Source of the DNA: a virus
Reading direction: 5' to 3' (one strand)
IMG/VR virus record: IMGVR_UViG_3300035661_000287
Span: 1 to 26,592 of that record
DNA: 26,592 nt
Positions within the stretch are counted from its first letter, which is position 1. Every line of letters starts with the position of its first letter. Of this stretch, positions 3,368 through 8,512 are shown in pieces. A model generated the notes under the pieces. That model made no database searches, was not told the DNA's origin, and saw only the letters and a program-made list of their open reading frames with translations. A program made the position numbers and the translations under genes.

Positions 3368-4363
3368 TCAACCTTCGAAGAAACGCATCACCTTGTTGAA
3401 TTCGATTGTGTCGCCGCCGAAAATGTCACGCAGCGGTCGCCTTGATGCGCCCATGAGTCCCCGCACAAATGTTTCCTCGAGGTTGGTGCCGACCCTGATG
3501 GGGGCTGCGTGGGTCGGATTTACCGAGCGGGCAAGATCCCCACCCTCCGGCGCGATGACAAACATTCTCATGCCGTGATCATTGACGGCACGCATGATGA
3601 CATCATTAATGTGGCTATCGCGAAAGCCGTAGCCAATGACCATAAGGCGCGCGTCTGGTCGACAAATGCTTTCCTCGAATATCTGGTGGTAGCGGGTCAA
3701 GACTGGTGACAACCCGATTTCACGCATCTTGTTCCCACCCATGATGAGCATCGGTGCGCCATGGGTTTCTTGCCAATTCGATGACCCATGCAACTTGAAA
3801 TAGGGCTGCATGCGTGAGTCGAGTGAAAACTCATTTATCGGTGCGGGAACCCAATTCCGCTGGGCCCATGAATTCTGGTTTGCTGCATGCGGATTGTGAA
3901 TCGGGCGCATCCCCGGCAGATCTGAGCCGCCCCAGCGTCGATTTGACAACAGCGACACATCGCGGTCGATGTAATAGTGCTCGAGCAGTAAATCTTGATT
4001 GAGCGTGAAGATGGCGTTGAATCGGGTGAGGAACGTACCGACCATTCTTTCCCGCGCTTGCTGGAATTCGAAGTCGGTGTGATCGAAGAAGCCACGATTC
4101 ATGTCATCGAACATTCTTGCCACGGCGCTTTGCAGCCCTTGCAGATTTTCCGTGTTCTCCTGGGGTGCCCGAATGAAATTGGCTTGCACCTCCGCCAGCG
4201 CATTCTCGAATCCGCCGTTGGGTTGGTTCCGCCAAAGCAGTGCCAGTAGTTGTGGATTGCGCACGACCTCGGGGCACCCGAGTAAATATTCAAATGCCTC
4301 TGACGCCAGCCATCCTCCCCAGTTTCTGCTGAAGCCAGCGCCAAGCAACAGGTAATGACTCAT
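3368..4363 (-). CDS. SIR2-domain protein, probable NAD-directed defence effector
   Basis: A 331-aa protein with the SIR2-like NAD-binding fold. It has GAGFS at residues 8-12 for the nucleotide loop, TLNQD at 120-124 (matching the sirtuin TxNxD, with the catalytic-type Asn122 and Asp124), KLHGS around 190-194 with the catalytic His192, and a C-terminal GYGFRDSHIN motif at 244-253. All residues expected for NAD hydrolysis or ADP-ribose chemistry are present. In phage defence, SIR2 domains (ThsA of Thoeris, DSR1/DSR2, SIR2-HerA, SIR2-pAgo) deplete NAD and stop infected cells. There is no fused sensor domain here, so activation probably depends on a partner. The start has AAGGAG 6 bp upstream and lies 12 bp after the ImmA/IrrE stop, so they form one operon. 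A housekeeping deacetylase is unlikely, since there is no Cys4 zinc module. Confidence 0.82.
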   Translation of the reverse strand: MSHYLLLGAGFSRNWGGWLASEAFEYLLGCPEVVRNPQLLALLWRNQPNGGFENALAEVQANFIRAPQENTENLQGLQSAVARMFDDMNRGFFDHTDFEFQQARERMVGTFLTRFNAIFTLNQDLLLEHYYIDRDVSLLSNRRWGGSDLPGMRPIHNPHAANQNSWAQRNWVPAPINEFSLDSRMQPYFKLHGSSNWQETHGAPMLIMGGNKMREIGLSPVLTRYHQIFEESICRPDARLMVIGYGFRDSHINDVIMRAVNDHGMRMFVIAPEGGDLARSVNPTHAAPIRVGTNLEETFVRGLMGASRRPLRDIFGGDTIEFNKVMRFFEG

Positions 4364-4375
4364 TACGGCTCCTTG

Positions 4376-5299
4376 TCACCGGATCGGCGGCTGCCCGTTG
4401 TCGACGAAGCGATCAAACGTATCGCGCGTTTCCTCATCTTCCCACCCGCTGCGGAAATAGGTACGTGGCGGCGCTGCCTCCAACATCAGCAATGACAGAA
4501 CGCGATTGCCATCGGCATAGGTATGTTTGAGTTCACGCAGCCTGATCTCGTCGGCCTCGCTTGAGCACCATGACCTGGCAGGCATATCGACGCCATCCCA
4601 TTCCTGGGCAACATCTTCATCAGCAGCCAAGGTACCGGTCAGTGGCTCCTGCGGATCATCGGTTTTTCGTAAACGCACCCGCGTTTTTCTAGCCTCGCCA
4701 CTGGGCCACTGATATTTCAGAAAGCCGTTATCCCAATACACGAGCACTGCGCGCTGTTCCGTGTATTTCACGAGGCGGATGCACATGGCCTCCAGTGACA
4801 CGCCGAACTCTTTGGCCAGCGCACCCAACAAATGGAAATCGATGCGCTTGCCGTCAATGCGGTCGCGCAGCATGTCGCCGGGCATGAGCAGGTTGCTGGC
4901 GAAATCATCCGCTTCGCGCTCGATCTGCTTCAACGAATCAATGCCGGTGTAGACACTTTCCTTGTCGCAGTTGAACGTTGCCTGCGTCGTGCGATGGAGA
5001 ATGAAATGCCCAAGTTCATGGGCGATGGTGAAGCGCCTGCGCTCTGGCCGGGCCTTGGGGTTCACGAAAACTCCCCACTCCACATGATTTTCTGGATTGC
5101 GAACCAGCGCACCCTCACTGGCATTCCATGTCAGATCGGCGGGCACCTTGATCACAGCGCCTCGACCCAAAGGCGTGTCGGGCAACATCTGCCGAACCAG
5201 ATCAAGATCGATCGGCAGGGTCCGCAGGCCGGTCGCTTTGAGCAAGTCCAGAATGCGCTTGGAGGCCTTGAAGGGGTTGAGGTCGTGCGGTACGGTCAA
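4376..5299 (-). CDS. ImmA/IrrE-type zinc metalloprotease (DUF955)
   Basis: A 307-aa protein. The N-terminal region is followed by the gluzincin motif FTIAHELGHFILH, with zinc ligands His94 and His98 and catalytic Glu95. EREADDFASNLLMP follows at 127-140, where a Glu (129) is the expected third ligand. In ICEBs1, ImmA cleaves the XRE repressor ImmR to switch on the element; IrrE/DdrO in Deinococcus works the same way. Here the gene directly follows an XRE repressor with overlapping stop and start (ATGA), the same arrangement, so the XRE protein is its likely substrate. Residues 200-307 form a longer C-terminal part than minimal ImmA and may sense a signal. It is followed 12 bp later by the SIR2 gene. 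Confidence 0.88.
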   Translation of the reverse strand: MTVPHDLNPFKASKRILDLLKATGLRTLPIDLDLVRQMLPDTPLGRGAVIKVPADLTWNASEGALVRNPENHVEWGVFVNPKARPERRRFTIAHELGHFILHRTTQATFNCDKESVYTGIDSLKQIEREADDFASNLLMPGDMLRDRIDGKRIDFHLLGALAKEFGVSLEAMCIRLVKYTEQRAVLVYWDNGFLKYQWPSGEARKTRVRLRKTDDPQEPLTGTLAADEDVAQEWDGVDMPARSWCSSEADEIRLRELKHTYADGNRVLSLLMLEAAPPRTYFRSGWEDEETRDTFDRFVDNGQPPIR

Positions 5300-5646
5300 G
5301 GGCTCTCCGAATCCGTTTTCGGGTTCGACCCGAACATCAATTTCATAGCCTCGCGGTACTTGGCTTTTTCGGCTTCGGTCATGCCGGCGTACTCCCGGAA
5401 AAAGGCAACGTCCTTCGGCGTGGCCGTTTGCATCTGAGCAACAGGTTCACCGAGCAGGTCCTGGATGGTGACGCCGAGCGTCTTGGCAATGGCGTTCAAT
5501 CGATCTGCGGTGGGTTTCTGGCCCTCGCGCATTTCCAATTCCCACACGTAGGCCTTGGTACAGCCGACGGCGTCTGCTACTTGCTGCAGCGTCAGACCCT
5601 TGGCTTCCCGAAACTCGCGCAGGCGTATTCCGAAGGGGGATGGCAT
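5296..5646 (-). CDS. XRE-family repressor
   Basis: A 116-aa protein read from the ATG at 5646. Residues 5-62 form a classic XRE/Cro-CI HTH (LREFREAKGLTLQQVADAVG, then ...YVWELE...). The C-terminal tail (EYAGMTEAEKAKYREAMKL) is a short helix typical of small ImmR-type repressors. An upstream in-frame ATG at 5697 is unlikely because a TATACT -10 box lies between the two starts. A weak GAGAG precedes the chosen start. By analogy with ImmR it would repress the divergent promoter at 5722-5749 and be removed by the adjacent ImmA-like protease. It is the first gene of the XRE-ImmA-SIR2 operon. Confidence 0.88.
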   Translation of the reverse strand: MPSPFGIRLREFREAKGLTLQQVADAVGCTKAYVWELEMREGQKPTADRLNAIAKTLGVTIQDLLGEPVAQMQTATPKDVAFFREYAGMTEAEKAKYREAMKLMFGSNPKTDSESP

Positions 5647-5656
5647 GGGCGTTCTC

Positions 5657-5706
5657 TCAAGTGAATCAGAGCTTGAAAGTATAGCAGAGAGAGCCAAATA
5701 GATGAA
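5657..5706 (-). promoter_or_regulatory. Leftward promoter and candidate operator for the XRE-ImmA-SIR2 operon
   Basis: On the minus strand a TATACT -10 box (5683-5678) lies 32 bp before the XRE start. The -35 at 17 bp spacing is weak (TTCATC, 5706-5701), as for an activated or modest promoter. Directly downstream of the -10 is a dyad TCAAG-N10-CTTGA (5657-5676) covering the likely start site, a good place for autorepression. Confidence 0.5.
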
Positions 5707-5721
5707 GATGTCCTGCTTTGA

Positions 5722-5749
5722 TTGACAAGCGGAAATGCGCGTGTAGAAT
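5722..5749 (+). promoter_or_regulatory. Rightward sigma70 promoter for the 411/320-aa operon
   Basis: A perfect -35 TTGACA (5722-5727) and a -10 TAGAAT (5744-5749) are separated by 16 bp. Transcription would start near 5756, giving a leader of about 120 nt before the ATG at 5876. It stands back to back with the leftward XRE promoter, -35 boxes about 15 bp apart, the geometry of a phage immunity switch. Confidence 0.75.
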
Positions 5750-5875
5750 TGCGTTTGTATCGTTTTACTTTACTTGTGATCGGTACGTGTATTTTTTCTT
5801 GTAACCCAGTCGCCGACGGCGGCACCGCAAGGTTCCCGGTCTTTAGACAACGACGACATCCTGAAAGGACCGAGT

Positions 5876-7111
5876 ATGAAACTGACCTACGCAGACGCGC
5901 TGCTCAACTTGCCAGTCGACGCGACGCTACGCACTTACCTCAACCAGCAGGGCATGGTGTTCCCCCCGGACTTTGACTGGACGGACGATCCCGCCACCTC
6001 CAACCGGCTGATCGAGGCGATTCAGACCTGTCCTGACAGCAGCGTGCGGGACAAGGTCGTGGCCGGTTTGCATGTGAGCATGCAGCTTGGCCATCCACGC
6101 GGCAAACAGGCTATGTTTGAGGCCACCAGGGCCAATAGCGCCGCGCTGGTCGGAATGATCGGATGCCAAAGTGATCCCCACCGCGCCTTTTGGTTGTTTG
6201 TCCATCATCTGGATCTGTTTGAACAGGCGGCGGAGAGCGAGTACGTTGACAGCCACACCCAGCATGCGCAACAGCACGATCTCGGGATCAAGTTGCCGGT
6301 GCGCCGTGATCCGGCTGCCATGGCGGCCTTCAGCGAGGCCATCAAAGGTTTCTACCAAAAGGAACTCGGCTGCGGCGAGGTCTGCGTTGCGCATCTGCTG
6401 GATCGAGCCCAGGGCACGCAGCTCGTCACGGTGCACGCCAAGGACCAGGCCATGATGCGGCTGGAGTTCAACGGCGCTACGCTGCAACGCCGTGTCGGTA
6501 GCCCGAATATCCACATGACCCTGGAGTATTCGGACGCTACCGGGGTGGTCCGCACCCTGATTCGCGGTGGTGCGAAATACCATGAGATGCTGGCCCAGGC
6601 TTTCGCCCTCCACCTGCTGGGTGTGGATGTCGCCGCCCAGCGCATCAAGCCGCCAACATTGGACCTGTCGACCTTGAAGTTGGGATTTCAGGTGCCGCAG
6701 GCTGCCGACGACGGATTTGTCACGCTGCAGGTCAAATCGATCACGCTGACGAGCCCTGATACGCAACTCAAGGCGGAGTTCACCGCCATGGCCAGCAGCG
6801 AGCATGAATGTGTCACGGACCTGATTGCCGAAAAATTCGAGCATGACAATCCGCTCGCGCGTCACTGGCTGGTGACCGCCGCCAGCATCAACCTCTATTA
6901 CGCGCCACCACCCGGCAAGCAACGCAGTCCGGTCGTGACCGTGGAGGTGACCCGTCGTGGCCGGTTGAACCTGCACAAGTTCGACGAGAAACTGCGCGCC
7001 CAGTTGGAGAGCTACCTGGTGCATATCGGCATCCTGCAGGAAAAGCAGACACTGTCGGCACAGGCGGACGTGGCCGGGCAGCATAGCGAACTGGTAGACG
7101 AGCGCAATTGA
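5876..7111 (+). CDS. Uncharacterised protein of 411 aa, first gene of the divergent operon
   Basis: I do not recognise this family. The start ATG has AAGGA 8 bp upstream. The protein is soluble, with no signal peptide or membrane segment. The N-terminal 130 residues are mostly helical, followed by alternating beta/alpha stretches. No Walker, HTH, nuclease or metal motif is evident; the only recurring feature is scattered histidines in HHLDLFEQ and HTQHAQQH (about residues 105-140). Position is informative: it is the first gene transcribed away from an XRE-ImmA switch, where phages place cro or early control genes or cargo. It is translationally coupled to the next gene, so the two products probably act together. 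A large antisense frame here is a coding shadow. Confidence 0.8.
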   Translation: MKLTYADALLNLPVDATLRTYLNQQGMVFPPDFDWTDDPATSNRLIEAIQTCPDSSVRDKVVAGLHVSMQLGHPRGKQAMFEATRANSAALVGMIGCQSDPHRAFWLFVHHLDLFEQAAESEYVDSHTQHAQQHDLGIKLPVRRDPAAMAAFSEAIKGFYQKELGCGEVCVAHLLDRAQGTQLVTVHAKDQAMMRLEFNGATLQRRVGSPNIHMTLEYSDATGVVRTLIRGGAKYHEMLAQAFALHLLGVDVAAQRIKPPTLDLSTLKLGFQVPQAADDGFVTLQVKSITLTSPDTQLKAEFTAMASSEHECVTDLIAEKFEHDNPLARHWLVTAASINLYYAPPPGKQRSPVVTVEVTRRGRLNLHKFDEKLRAQLESYLVHIGILQEKQTLSAQADVAGQHSELVDERN

Positions 7112-8070
7112 GCAAGGTGAGCAACGCAAGCACCTGGGCGCTGGCTTGTCGGCATTTTGGCAGTGACGAGCCGGCGCTAGAGGCGGCCCTGACCGATCCG
7201 GAACGCGACGCCCTGGCCGCGCTTGGTGAGATGCGCGCCGTGAAACAGCACAAACTGGATCTCCGCTATGTGCTGTGCCCCTACTGCCAGTTGCACCGTG
7301 GCCAGGTAGTTCAAATCAGCGGCGGCCTGGCCTGCCAATGTCCAGACTGCGGGACGGTGTCGGTGGATGCTGCCGATCGACAAGCGTGGCTTTTCGATGC
7401 TGAATGGCTGATTCGCAAACTGCGCGGCGCGCTGAGCATCCCGGCCCAGCAGGGCGTGGTGTCCGTGGTCGCCGGCATGTGGCGATTGGGGACATTTCAA
7501 CGCCGCCCCGTCATGCTGGCGCGCAGTCTGGACATGCTGCTACGACAGCCGGCGCTGATTGCGCGCACGCGTGGTGCAGCGGTGCCATGGTTGATCACGC
7601 CGAAACCGATGCGGGATATTGACCATGACCCGCTTGCTGGCGCTGCCGTTTGGCTACCGCTGGAGGAGCGATTCACCTTGTACGGCGGCAACCTCAGTTT
7701 TACGGAACCGGGGGCAGAGCCGGATAGCGATGCACAGACCAATACGACTGAGGCGGTGAACGGTCCGTTTTCGGCGGACTTCCGGTGGGTGCATCTGCCC
7801 GGGGAGTCGTCGCCGATCGCTGTGTCCGAAGCGCAGGCCTCGGTATTCCGTGCCTTCTGGCATTTTGCGGGTCAGGAGCAGGAAGCCCACAACGTGATGG
7901 GACGGGCCGGACTAACTAGCGACAAGCCCATTGATGTGTTCAAGGTCAAGACCAAAAACAAGGACGACCCCAAATACGAAGGGCCGCTGCGCGCCTACAA
8001 GGCATTGATCAATACCAATCAGCGCGCAGGCACCTATGTCATGCCCTGCGCGGCGCCAGTGAAATCCTGA
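7108..8070 (+). CDS. Uncharacterised zinc-ribbon protein of 320 aa, coupled to the 411-aa gene
   Basis: The family is unknown to me. The TTG start at 7108 overlaps the stop of the previous gene (TTGA); a GTG at 7117 is an alternative. Residues 57-81 form a zinc ribbon with CPYC (Cys57, Cys60) and CPDC (Cys78, Cys81). The centre has aromatic-rich stretches such as WLPLEERFTLYGG, and residues 240-315 look like a small winged-helix region (SEAQASVFRAFWHF...LTSDKPIDVFKVKTK). Zinc ribbon plus winged-helix-like end suggests a nucleic-acid-binding protein; this is inference. A strong terminator 20 bp after the stop ends the operon, so these two genes form a closed two-gene unit. Confidence 0.78.
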   Translation: MSKVSNASTWALACRHFGSDEPALEAALTDPERDALAALGEMRAVKQHKLDLRYVLCPYCQLHRGQVVQISGGLACQCPDCGTVSVDAADRQAWLFDAEWLIRKLRGALSIPAQQGVVSVVAGMWRLGTFQRRPVMLARSLDMLLRQPALIARTRGAAVPWLITPKPMRDIDHDPLAGAAVWLPLEERFTLYGGNLSFTEPGAEPDSDAQTNTTEAVNGPFSADFRWVHLPGESSPIAVSEAQASVFRAFWHFAGQEQEAHNVMGRAGLTSDKPIDVFKVKTKNKDDPKYEGPLRAYKALINTNQRAGTYVMPCAAPVKS

Positions 8071-8089: not shown

Positions 8090-8120
8090 AAAACGGCGGG
8101 CCATTGCGGCTCGCCGTTTT
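8090..8120 (+). terminator. Intrinsic terminator after the two-gene operon
   Basis: Arms AAAACGGCG (8090-8098) and CGCCGTTTT (8112-8120) pair perfectly over 9 bp, with further pairing inside, and end in a U-run. The A-run on the 5' side makes it potentially bidirectional. Confidence 0.8.
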
Positions 8121-8134
8121 CGTTTCTGCGTTCA

Positions 8135-8190
8135 CTGGCGAACCCGAACTTCCAGATCAGTTCGCCAGCCGGTTCCTTAACAGTTCGCCA
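8135..8190. repeat. Three GTTCGCCA sites flanking the early promoter (candidate operators)
   Basis: CTGGCGAAC (8135-8143) is a perfect 9-bp inverted copy of GTTCGCCAG (8160-8168). A third copy, CAGTTCGCCA (8181-8190), repeats 8158-8167 directly, 23 bp further on, about two helical turns. The last two flank the candidate -35 at 8177-8182. No gene occupies this interval. Confidence 0.6.
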
Positions 8191-8205
8191 CCCAAATTTT
8201 TCAAT
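8177..8205 (+). promoter_or_regulatory. Candidate early promoter
   Basis: TTAACA (8177-8182, 5 of 6 matches) and TTCAAT (8200-8205, 4 of 6) are separated by 17 bp, placing a start near 8212 and a short leader before the gene at 8243. The preceding operon is closed by a terminator, so a promoter is needed here. Repeats on both sides of the -35 fit repression by an unidentified factor. Confidence 0.45.
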
Positions 8206-8242: not shown

Positions 8243-8512
8243 ATGCTGCAATCAACATCAGCAAATCGCGGTCTGTCAGCCACTTTGGCGACGTCTGCAA
8301 GCGTGGCACCGCACGAGCGGCGTGTGCTCTCTGAAACCGAACTAGCACAGCGCTGGGGCGTGAGTCCGAAGACGCTGCAGCGTTGGCGCTCCGAAGGACG
8401 TGGCCCGCACTATCTCAAGCTCTCCAAGCGGGTGACCTATCCGCTGGATGTGGTGACCGAGTACGAGCACAGCGCGCTGCACGTCTCGACATCCGAACGC
8501 GCAGCCAAGTGA
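8243..8512 (+). CDS. Excisionase/MerR-like helix-turn-helix protein
   Basis: An 89-aa protein. After a low-complexity Ser/Ala-rich N-terminus of about 25 residues it has the HTH_17-type domain: LSETELAQRWGVSPKTLQRWRSEGRGP followed by the wing YLKLSKRVTYPLDVVTEYE. Such small proteins act as recombination directionality factors or transcription regulators. It is far from the recombinase gene, but first in the early operon, a usual place for an excisionase or early regulator. The start has AAGGGG 8 bp upstream. Which of the two roles it plays cannot be told from sequence. Confidence 0.78.
   Translation: MLQSTSANRGLSATLATSASVAPHERRVLSETELAQRWGVSPKTLQRWRSEGRGPHYLKLSKRVTYPLDVVTEYEHSALHVSTSERAAK

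Follow-up and report, generated by a model that had tools for sequence, protein, structure and literature searches.

The window, by which we mean the whole stretch of DNA analysed, is a viral contig of 26.6 kb. On the - strand side, it carries, in order, o160, a serine integrase, a DUF2924 protein (o154), the small o78, SIR2, ImmA and XRE. The + strand encodes, in order, g411 and g320, followed by a terminator, and then hth89, g161, g96, an antirepressor, a Sak4-like protein, SSB, o167, a Cas4-like protein and a primase-helicase, after which come the packaging and head genes (the names of the later genes were assigned partly by reading the sequence). An Rfam search of the whole window detects no RNA families. 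The features of g411-g320 and of the genes divergent from it are as follows.

3368–4363, - strand: SIR2-like gene in a variable cargo slot (profile and PADLOC searches)
4376–5299, - strand: ImmA/IrrE metallopeptidase with the HExxH motif (best match, the PADLOC capP model, 1.3e-54)
5296–5646, - strand: XRE repressor in a CapH-like position (profile match), the proposed controller of g411-g320
5678–5683, - strand: TATACT, the -10 element of the divergent XRE promoter (AGTATAGC is conserved)
5722–5749, + strand: g411-g320 promoter, TTGACA-16-TAGAAT (sequence scan; kept in relatives)
5876–7111, + strand: g411, ORF of 411 aa with an ATG start (PHROG 37634)
7108–8070, + strand: g320, ORF of 320 aa with a TTG start, translationally coupled to g411
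7276–7353, + strand: zinc-ribbon region of g320 (C57, C60, C78, C81; invariant columns)
7753–8061, + strand: winged-helix part of g320, residues 216–318 (structure comparison, Z up to 7.2)
8090–8120, + strand: terminator hairpin 3' of g320 (fold computation; stem conserved in relatives)

The g411-g320 operon and its conservation

Full-length homologues of g411 and g320 are present in more than 100 phage or prophage loci, so that both are real genes, and the operon that they form is real, closed and translationally coupled. The ORFs, their 4-bp overlap, the promoter and the terminator are all as described in the original prediction, and the coupled pair indeed sits in the classic target position of an XRE/ImmA switch. 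The promoter scores 11/12, and one such site per 3.3 kb is the chance level (0.9 expected); both its -35 and -10 hexamers are conserved among the relatives. The terminator hairpin, with a 13-bp stem, a dG of -22.1 kcal/mol and a z of about -5, is missed by a simple terminator scan because its T-run is short. For the divergent XRE gene, the ATG start (5646–5296) is most likely, in preference to a TTG at 5697. In the g411 leader (5756–5800, + strand), a conserved inverted repeat, GTATCG...CGRTAC, precedes a T-run and is perfect in L050; this is possibly an attenuator or an XRE operator, and its fold in the window alone is not significant (z -1.2). A 400-aa antisense ORF (5927–7129, - strand) is regarded as spurious, the sense frame being homologous over the whole length.

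The searches recovered g411 relatives at 43 viral loci and g320 relatives at 75, together with 80 bacterial loci; among the genomes sampled, profiles hit 27 of 300 from the Burkholderiales and 31 of 398 from the wider phylum. In nearly all complete relatives, g411 and g320 lie side by side in an unchanged order, the gap ranging from -17 to +17 nt among the viral loci. Among 38 relatives of the integrase with at least 4.5 kb of upstream sequence, g411 is found in 37, both genes in 36, and XRE together with ImmA in 37, the exceptions being mostly loci cut by contig ends. Three layouts are observed: in the first, that of the window, XRE/ImmA is divergent and the early genes are next in line; in the second, XRE/ImmA is divergent, the pair sits at the distal end of the prophage, with the early operon on the opposite strand; the third is characteristic of a group without XRE/ImmA. 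The g411-g320 pair is a core module of serine-integrase prophages that form one lineage spanning alpha-, beta- and gammaproteobacteria. No description of the pair turned up in a search of the literature on prophages of this kind. Several genomes (G539, G458, G465, G508 and others) contain multiple copies of g411, many with in-frame stops, which suggests decaying prophages.

In three lineages (L369, L370 and phage AcaML1, gp6), g411 and g320 are fused into one protein of 721–751 aa. An hhalign comparison matches the C-terminal half of the fusion to stand-alone g320 with 99.2% (E 2e-19) and the N-terminal half to g411 with 99.9%, compared to 0.3% for the control. The existence of these fusions argues that g411 and g320 act together, and the two proteins may well form a physical complex. 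AcaML1 is an isolated phage of Acidithiobacillus, and its gp6 (L377, JX507079.1, 3281–5536), the fused g411-g320, is annotated as hypothetical; the adjacent gp7 and gp8 resemble a PIN toxin and an HTH partner by sequence. A direct tblastn search of 50,697 phage records with the window proteins yields nothing, and this isolated member surfaced only via the primase, the integrase and the profile.

The pair also travels with its neighbours. In L229–L241, the integrase and the DUF2924 protein remain about 72% identical to those of the window, whereas XRE, ImmA and g411 are only 33, 32 and 23% identical, respectively, and g320 is recognisable by profile only. XRE, ImmA, g411 and g320 have thus been exchanged en bloc, in the manner of an immunity region. 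In a more distant layout (L372, 6278–8995, and L373, 6534–9150), a small XRE gene precedes, on the same strand, a g411-like protein of 502–568 aa; in L373, an ImmA-like gene lies between the two, and repeats at lags 12 and 23 are found before hth89.

Sequence and predicted structure of the two proteins

Neither protein belongs to a known family, as originally noted: searches of Pfam and NCBIfam yield nothing above the cut-offs, PADLOC detects no family for g411 and none for g320, and the sole family match of g411 is PHROG 37634, of unknown function (2.8e-38). The predicted structure of g411 (mean pLDDT 78) consists of a helical N-terminal part (residues 1–130) followed by two alpha-beta parts that are TBP-like or RdgC-like. 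The model matches CENP-N (Foldseek E 1.4e-5, Z 9.8–10.8, 4–10% identity, partial coverage), RdgC (E 2.3e-4, Z 7.4 over 203 residues, rmsd 6.9) and TBP (Z about 6.5). Given that the TM-scores of the resemblance to RdgC, CENP-N/CENP-L and TBP-like folds are low (<0.32 of query), the likeness to CENP-N and RdgC is a fold lead, with homology not established; a g411 profile compared with PDB chains gives no significant sequence similarity to the RdgC, CENP-N or TBP families, and a Pfam match of g411 to RdgC is absent. In the XRE-less group (L011–L028), g411 ends in SLFE or DLFG, which resemble a sliding-clamp-binding motif; this beta-clamp-like motif was rejected as a general feature of g411 because it is not conserved outside that one group.

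The description of the 320-aa protein as a zinc-ribbon protein holds for the beta/gamma set, in which C57, C60, C78 and C81 are invariant, and fails for the alphaproteobacterial versions, which have lost these cysteines; profile hits of g320 are limited to weak zinc-ribbon matches below the cut-offs. In the model of g320 (mean pLDDT 89), the C-terminus is predicted to adopt an OmpR/PhoB-like winged-helix fold. The similarity to the OmpR-type fold extends over 84 residues, and the top rows of the comparison are all of this type, the match being modest (Foldseek E 0.08). By sequence, g320 matches OmpR/PhoB weakly, and a profile search of PDB sequences finds nothing significant. Regulators of the OmpR/PhoB type carry a receiver domain, whereas g320 has a zinc-ribbon or degenerate N-terminal half in its place, and no Pfam match to the receiver domain, with its phospho-acceptor Asp, was detected. 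The OmpR/PhoB winged-helix family binds tandem repeats spaced by about 10–11 bp, roughly one helical turn. Like these regulators, g320 combines the C-terminal fold with an array phased at 11–12 bp upstream of its putative target; unlike their sites, the array in the window alternates 12- and 11-bp spacing and contains one inverted site. We propose that g320 is the DNA-reading subunit of a regulator in which g411 would be the larger subunit.

The repeat array before hth89 and its predicted reader

The array lies between the terminator and hth89 and comprises, with the adjacent features, the following elements.

8136–8144, - strand: array site 1, GGTTCGCCA, inverted (repeat search)
8159–8167, + strand: array site 2, AGTTCGCCA (repeat search)
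8171–8179, + strand: array site 3, GGTTCCTTA, degenerate, 12 bp after site 2 (sequence)
8182–8190, + strand: array site 4, AGTTCGCCA, 11 bp after site 3 and 23 bp after site 2 (repeat search)
8200–8205, + strand: TTCAAT, an instance of a conserved -10-like TNNAAT, placed precisely 17 nt past the last GTTC
8243–8512, + strand: hth89, AlpA/excisionase-like (profile match), first gene of the early operon and start of the proposed target operon

In a sample of 59 non-redundant phages (g411 identity below 90%), the 150 bp before hth89 contain 396 repeat pairs at lags 11, 12 and 22–24, compared to 30 expected, and such pairs occur in 58 of the 59 regions; at the control lags 14–20, the same regions give 43 pairs against 42.7 expected. 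Upstream of g411, the integrase, o154, SSB, ImmA and XRE, repeats at the array lags are near or below expectation, with the highest count for ImmA (34 versus 23). The last repeat ends 50 bp (IQR 48–51) before the start codon of hth89, and TNNAAT begins exactly 17 nt after the last GTTC in 34 of the 42 phages with GTTC-type arrays and almost never at other offsets.

The letters of the array differ between phages: the window and its related groups have GTTCGCCA, the XRE-less group has GTTCCTT, L217/L229 have TGCCCACC and L221/L222/L347 have CCCGTACAT. These changes follow the type of g320. For pairs of phages that share 65% identity or more in hth89, the similarity of their arrays is 4.63 at g320 identities of 40% or more and 3.17 at g320 identities below 30% (n=26), with a background of 2.83. 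The overall correlation with array similarity is 0.85 for g320, 0.82 for XRE, 0.82 for hth89 and 0.77 for g411; since hth89, which is linked to the array, correlates almost as well as g320, the case for g320 as the reader depends on the comparison of swaps. An earlier correlation test had given hth89 a higher partial correlation, with a region that reached into the hth89 coding sequence. Phages in which the array letters have changed together with the g320 type in nature are ready material for decoding the specificity.

A reader other than g320 (hth89, XRE or a host factor), with g411-g320 in some other role such as RdgC-like recombination control at excision, appears unlikely. The proximity of hth89 to the array, its correlation with array similarity and the RdgC-like fold of the g411 model are in line with such a scheme, but the recognition helix of hth89 is almost constant where the array letters differ completely. 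XRE is disfavoured as the reader because the array word occurs no more often than expected at the XRE/g411 promoter (5 occurrences versus 5.3 expected, compared to 93 versus 4.5 at hth89) and because all 17 non-redundant phages in which XRE was not detected retain the array, some of these loci being truncated. As g411 and XRE co-vary with g320, g411 could also be the part that contacts DNA. The comparison of swaps is best compatible with g320 as the reader of the array.

The early promoter at hth89 has no recognisable -35 element, and its -10 element is limited to the weak TNNAAT. Class II activator promoters are organised with an activator site in place of the -35 element, at a fixed distance from the -10 element, SetCD being a documented case (PMC4344509). 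The array with its fixed -10-like element has this layout, and it is from this promoter geometry that activation of the early operon would be read. On balance, it is probable, with ample room for doubt, that g411 and g320 are two subunits of a phage early-gene regulator, most likely a transcriptional activator, that is derepressed by DNA damage and binds the array before hth89. Upstream of hth89, no array is detectable in the fused forms of AcaML1 and L370, so that these fusions either recognise a different site or fall outside the model.

Two other functions would use the same binding site, and therefore only promoter geometry and damage control set them apart from activation. One is a cro-like role, whereby the pair would bind the array and repress the early operon late in infection or when lysogeny is established. 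The position of the pair opposite the XRE repressor is that of cro, and the array covers the -35 region, from which repression is equally conceivable. Nevertheless, the lack of a recognisable -35 element and the weak -10 element are typical of activator-dependent promoters, and a pure repressor that is released by damage through LexA or ImmA would close the operon exactly when the prophage should leave, so that this role seems improbable. Accordingly, the suggestion in the original prediction of a control unit holds in the broad sense but not as a simply cro-like one, the sequence evidence pointing to a downstream activator. The other function is that of a replication initiator, with the array serving as a set of iterons at the origin of the phage. 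Initiators of the winged-helix type recognise direct iteron repeats spaced by about 22 bp, and the array adjoins the replication and recombination operon. However, the fixed distance to the hth89 start codon and the -10-like element at 17 nt suit promoters rather than origins, these phages encode their own primase-helicase, SSB and Sak4-like proteins, and one of the layouts has the pair at one end of the module and the array at the other. Such an initiator is, in our estimate, quite unlikely, and activation of the early operon by g411-g320 remains the preferred reading.

Damage control and the proposed circuit

In most loci, g411 is divergent from XRE and a CapP-like ImmA protease. The ImmA of the window, an M78 peptidase with HELGH, matches the capP model over its full length (residues 13–274) and is of the CapP type. 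For CapP proteases, ssDNA is the activating signal, and their repressor is the substrate that they cleave (PMC13373217, citing Lau et al. 2022). The original prediction had raised the question of whether the pair always neighbours XRE-ImmA; this is not the case, and in loci lacking XRE/ImmA the g411 promoter has an overlapping LexA-type box, CTGTATATTTATMCAG. Boxes with at least 12 of 16 matching positions precede g411 in 18 of the 38 non-redundant regions that lack XRE/ImmA and in 0 of the 88 regions that have them (chance, 0.0013 per region). Because the 18 regions largely represent one clade, the number of independent switches of control is small; L135, outside this clade, has a separate CTG-N10-CAG. 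Either XRE/ImmA or LexA would place g411-g320 under DNA-damage control.

The following circuit is compatible with these observations. In the lysogen, the divergent XRE, or host LexA in the sister group, would hold g411-g320 off. Upon DNA damage, ImmA would cleave XRE, by analogy with CapH/CapP, or LexA would be inactivated, and g411-g320 would be made. The predicted complex would then bind the array via the winged helix of g320, replacing the missing -35 element, and turn on the early operon, that is, hth89 and the recombination and replication genes. In the layouts in which the early operon is located beyond a terminator or on the other strand, a trans-acting product is needed.

The closest parallel to this scheme is SetR/SetC-SetD of SXT/R391 (and AcaCD, FlhDC), where a repressor relieved by damage controls a two-gene operon, as proposed here (PMC4344509). 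The two SetCD products function jointly as a single activator, bound in the -35 region of promoters without a good -35 element, which we propose for g411-g320 from sequence, and both operons are located near integration genes (PMC4344509). The gene order and control regions of g411-g320 fit this arrangement, in which damage releases a two-gene operon from an adjacent repressor. There are also differences: SetR is thought to be inactivated by RecA-driven self-cleavage, whereas here a separate ImmA protease or host LexA would be involved, and SetCD binds a 19-bp site, in contrast to the multi-copy repeat phased at 11–12 and 23 bp and the OmpR-like winged helix of g320 (PMC4344509). Pfam matches of g411 or g320 to FlhC and FlhD are absent, for which reason we consider the proteins unrelated to SetCD. 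The circuit would thus work like SetR/SetCD while being built from unrelated proteins. This analysis offers a testable function for PHROG 37634 and its partner and points to a prophage switch with two tiers, a replaceable damage sensor (LexA, or XRE with a protease) and an activator that is kept together with its array.

A bolder version of this proposal, to which we give little credence, is that g411-g320 defines a novel type of phage master activator, heteromeric in nature, with ImmA/XRE or LexA as exchangeable damage sensors upstream and a PhoB-like repeat array downstream, and that g411 is a genuine homologue, in prokaryotes, of the RdgC/CENP-N/CENP-L TBP-like proteins. If so, a phage transcription switch would be linked to the ancestry of a kinetochore DNA-binding protein.

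The original prediction had listed a defence or anti-defence pair under XRE/ImmA control among the possibilities. CapH/CapP-type control normally governs immune operons (PMC13373217), and SIR2 is encoded in the neighbouring operon. However, g411-g320 is core to the phage lineage rather than sporadic, PADLOC matches are lacking for both proteins, and genes for defence and for toxin-antitoxin systems occupy a separate, variable slot, all of which makes a defensive role highly improbable and leaves the pair as the predicted early-gene regulator. As in CapH-CapP controllers, the window has an XRE gene upstream of ImmA, with variable, often defence-type, cargo downstream; unlike in those controllers, XRE/ImmA here also faces a divergent phage operon. 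By this analogy, XRE/ImmA of the window would govern both the cargo and prophage induction, so that a CapH/CapP-type controller would be wired to the defence cargo slot and to the prophage switch alike. The slot corresponds to 3368–4363 (- strand) in the window, with the matching slot in L029–L126, and is located downstream of g320 in L011–L028 and L052–L067. Its occupants include SIR2, AbiEi/AbiEii, AbiLi/AbiLii (RloAB), HipA and GmrSD, among others.
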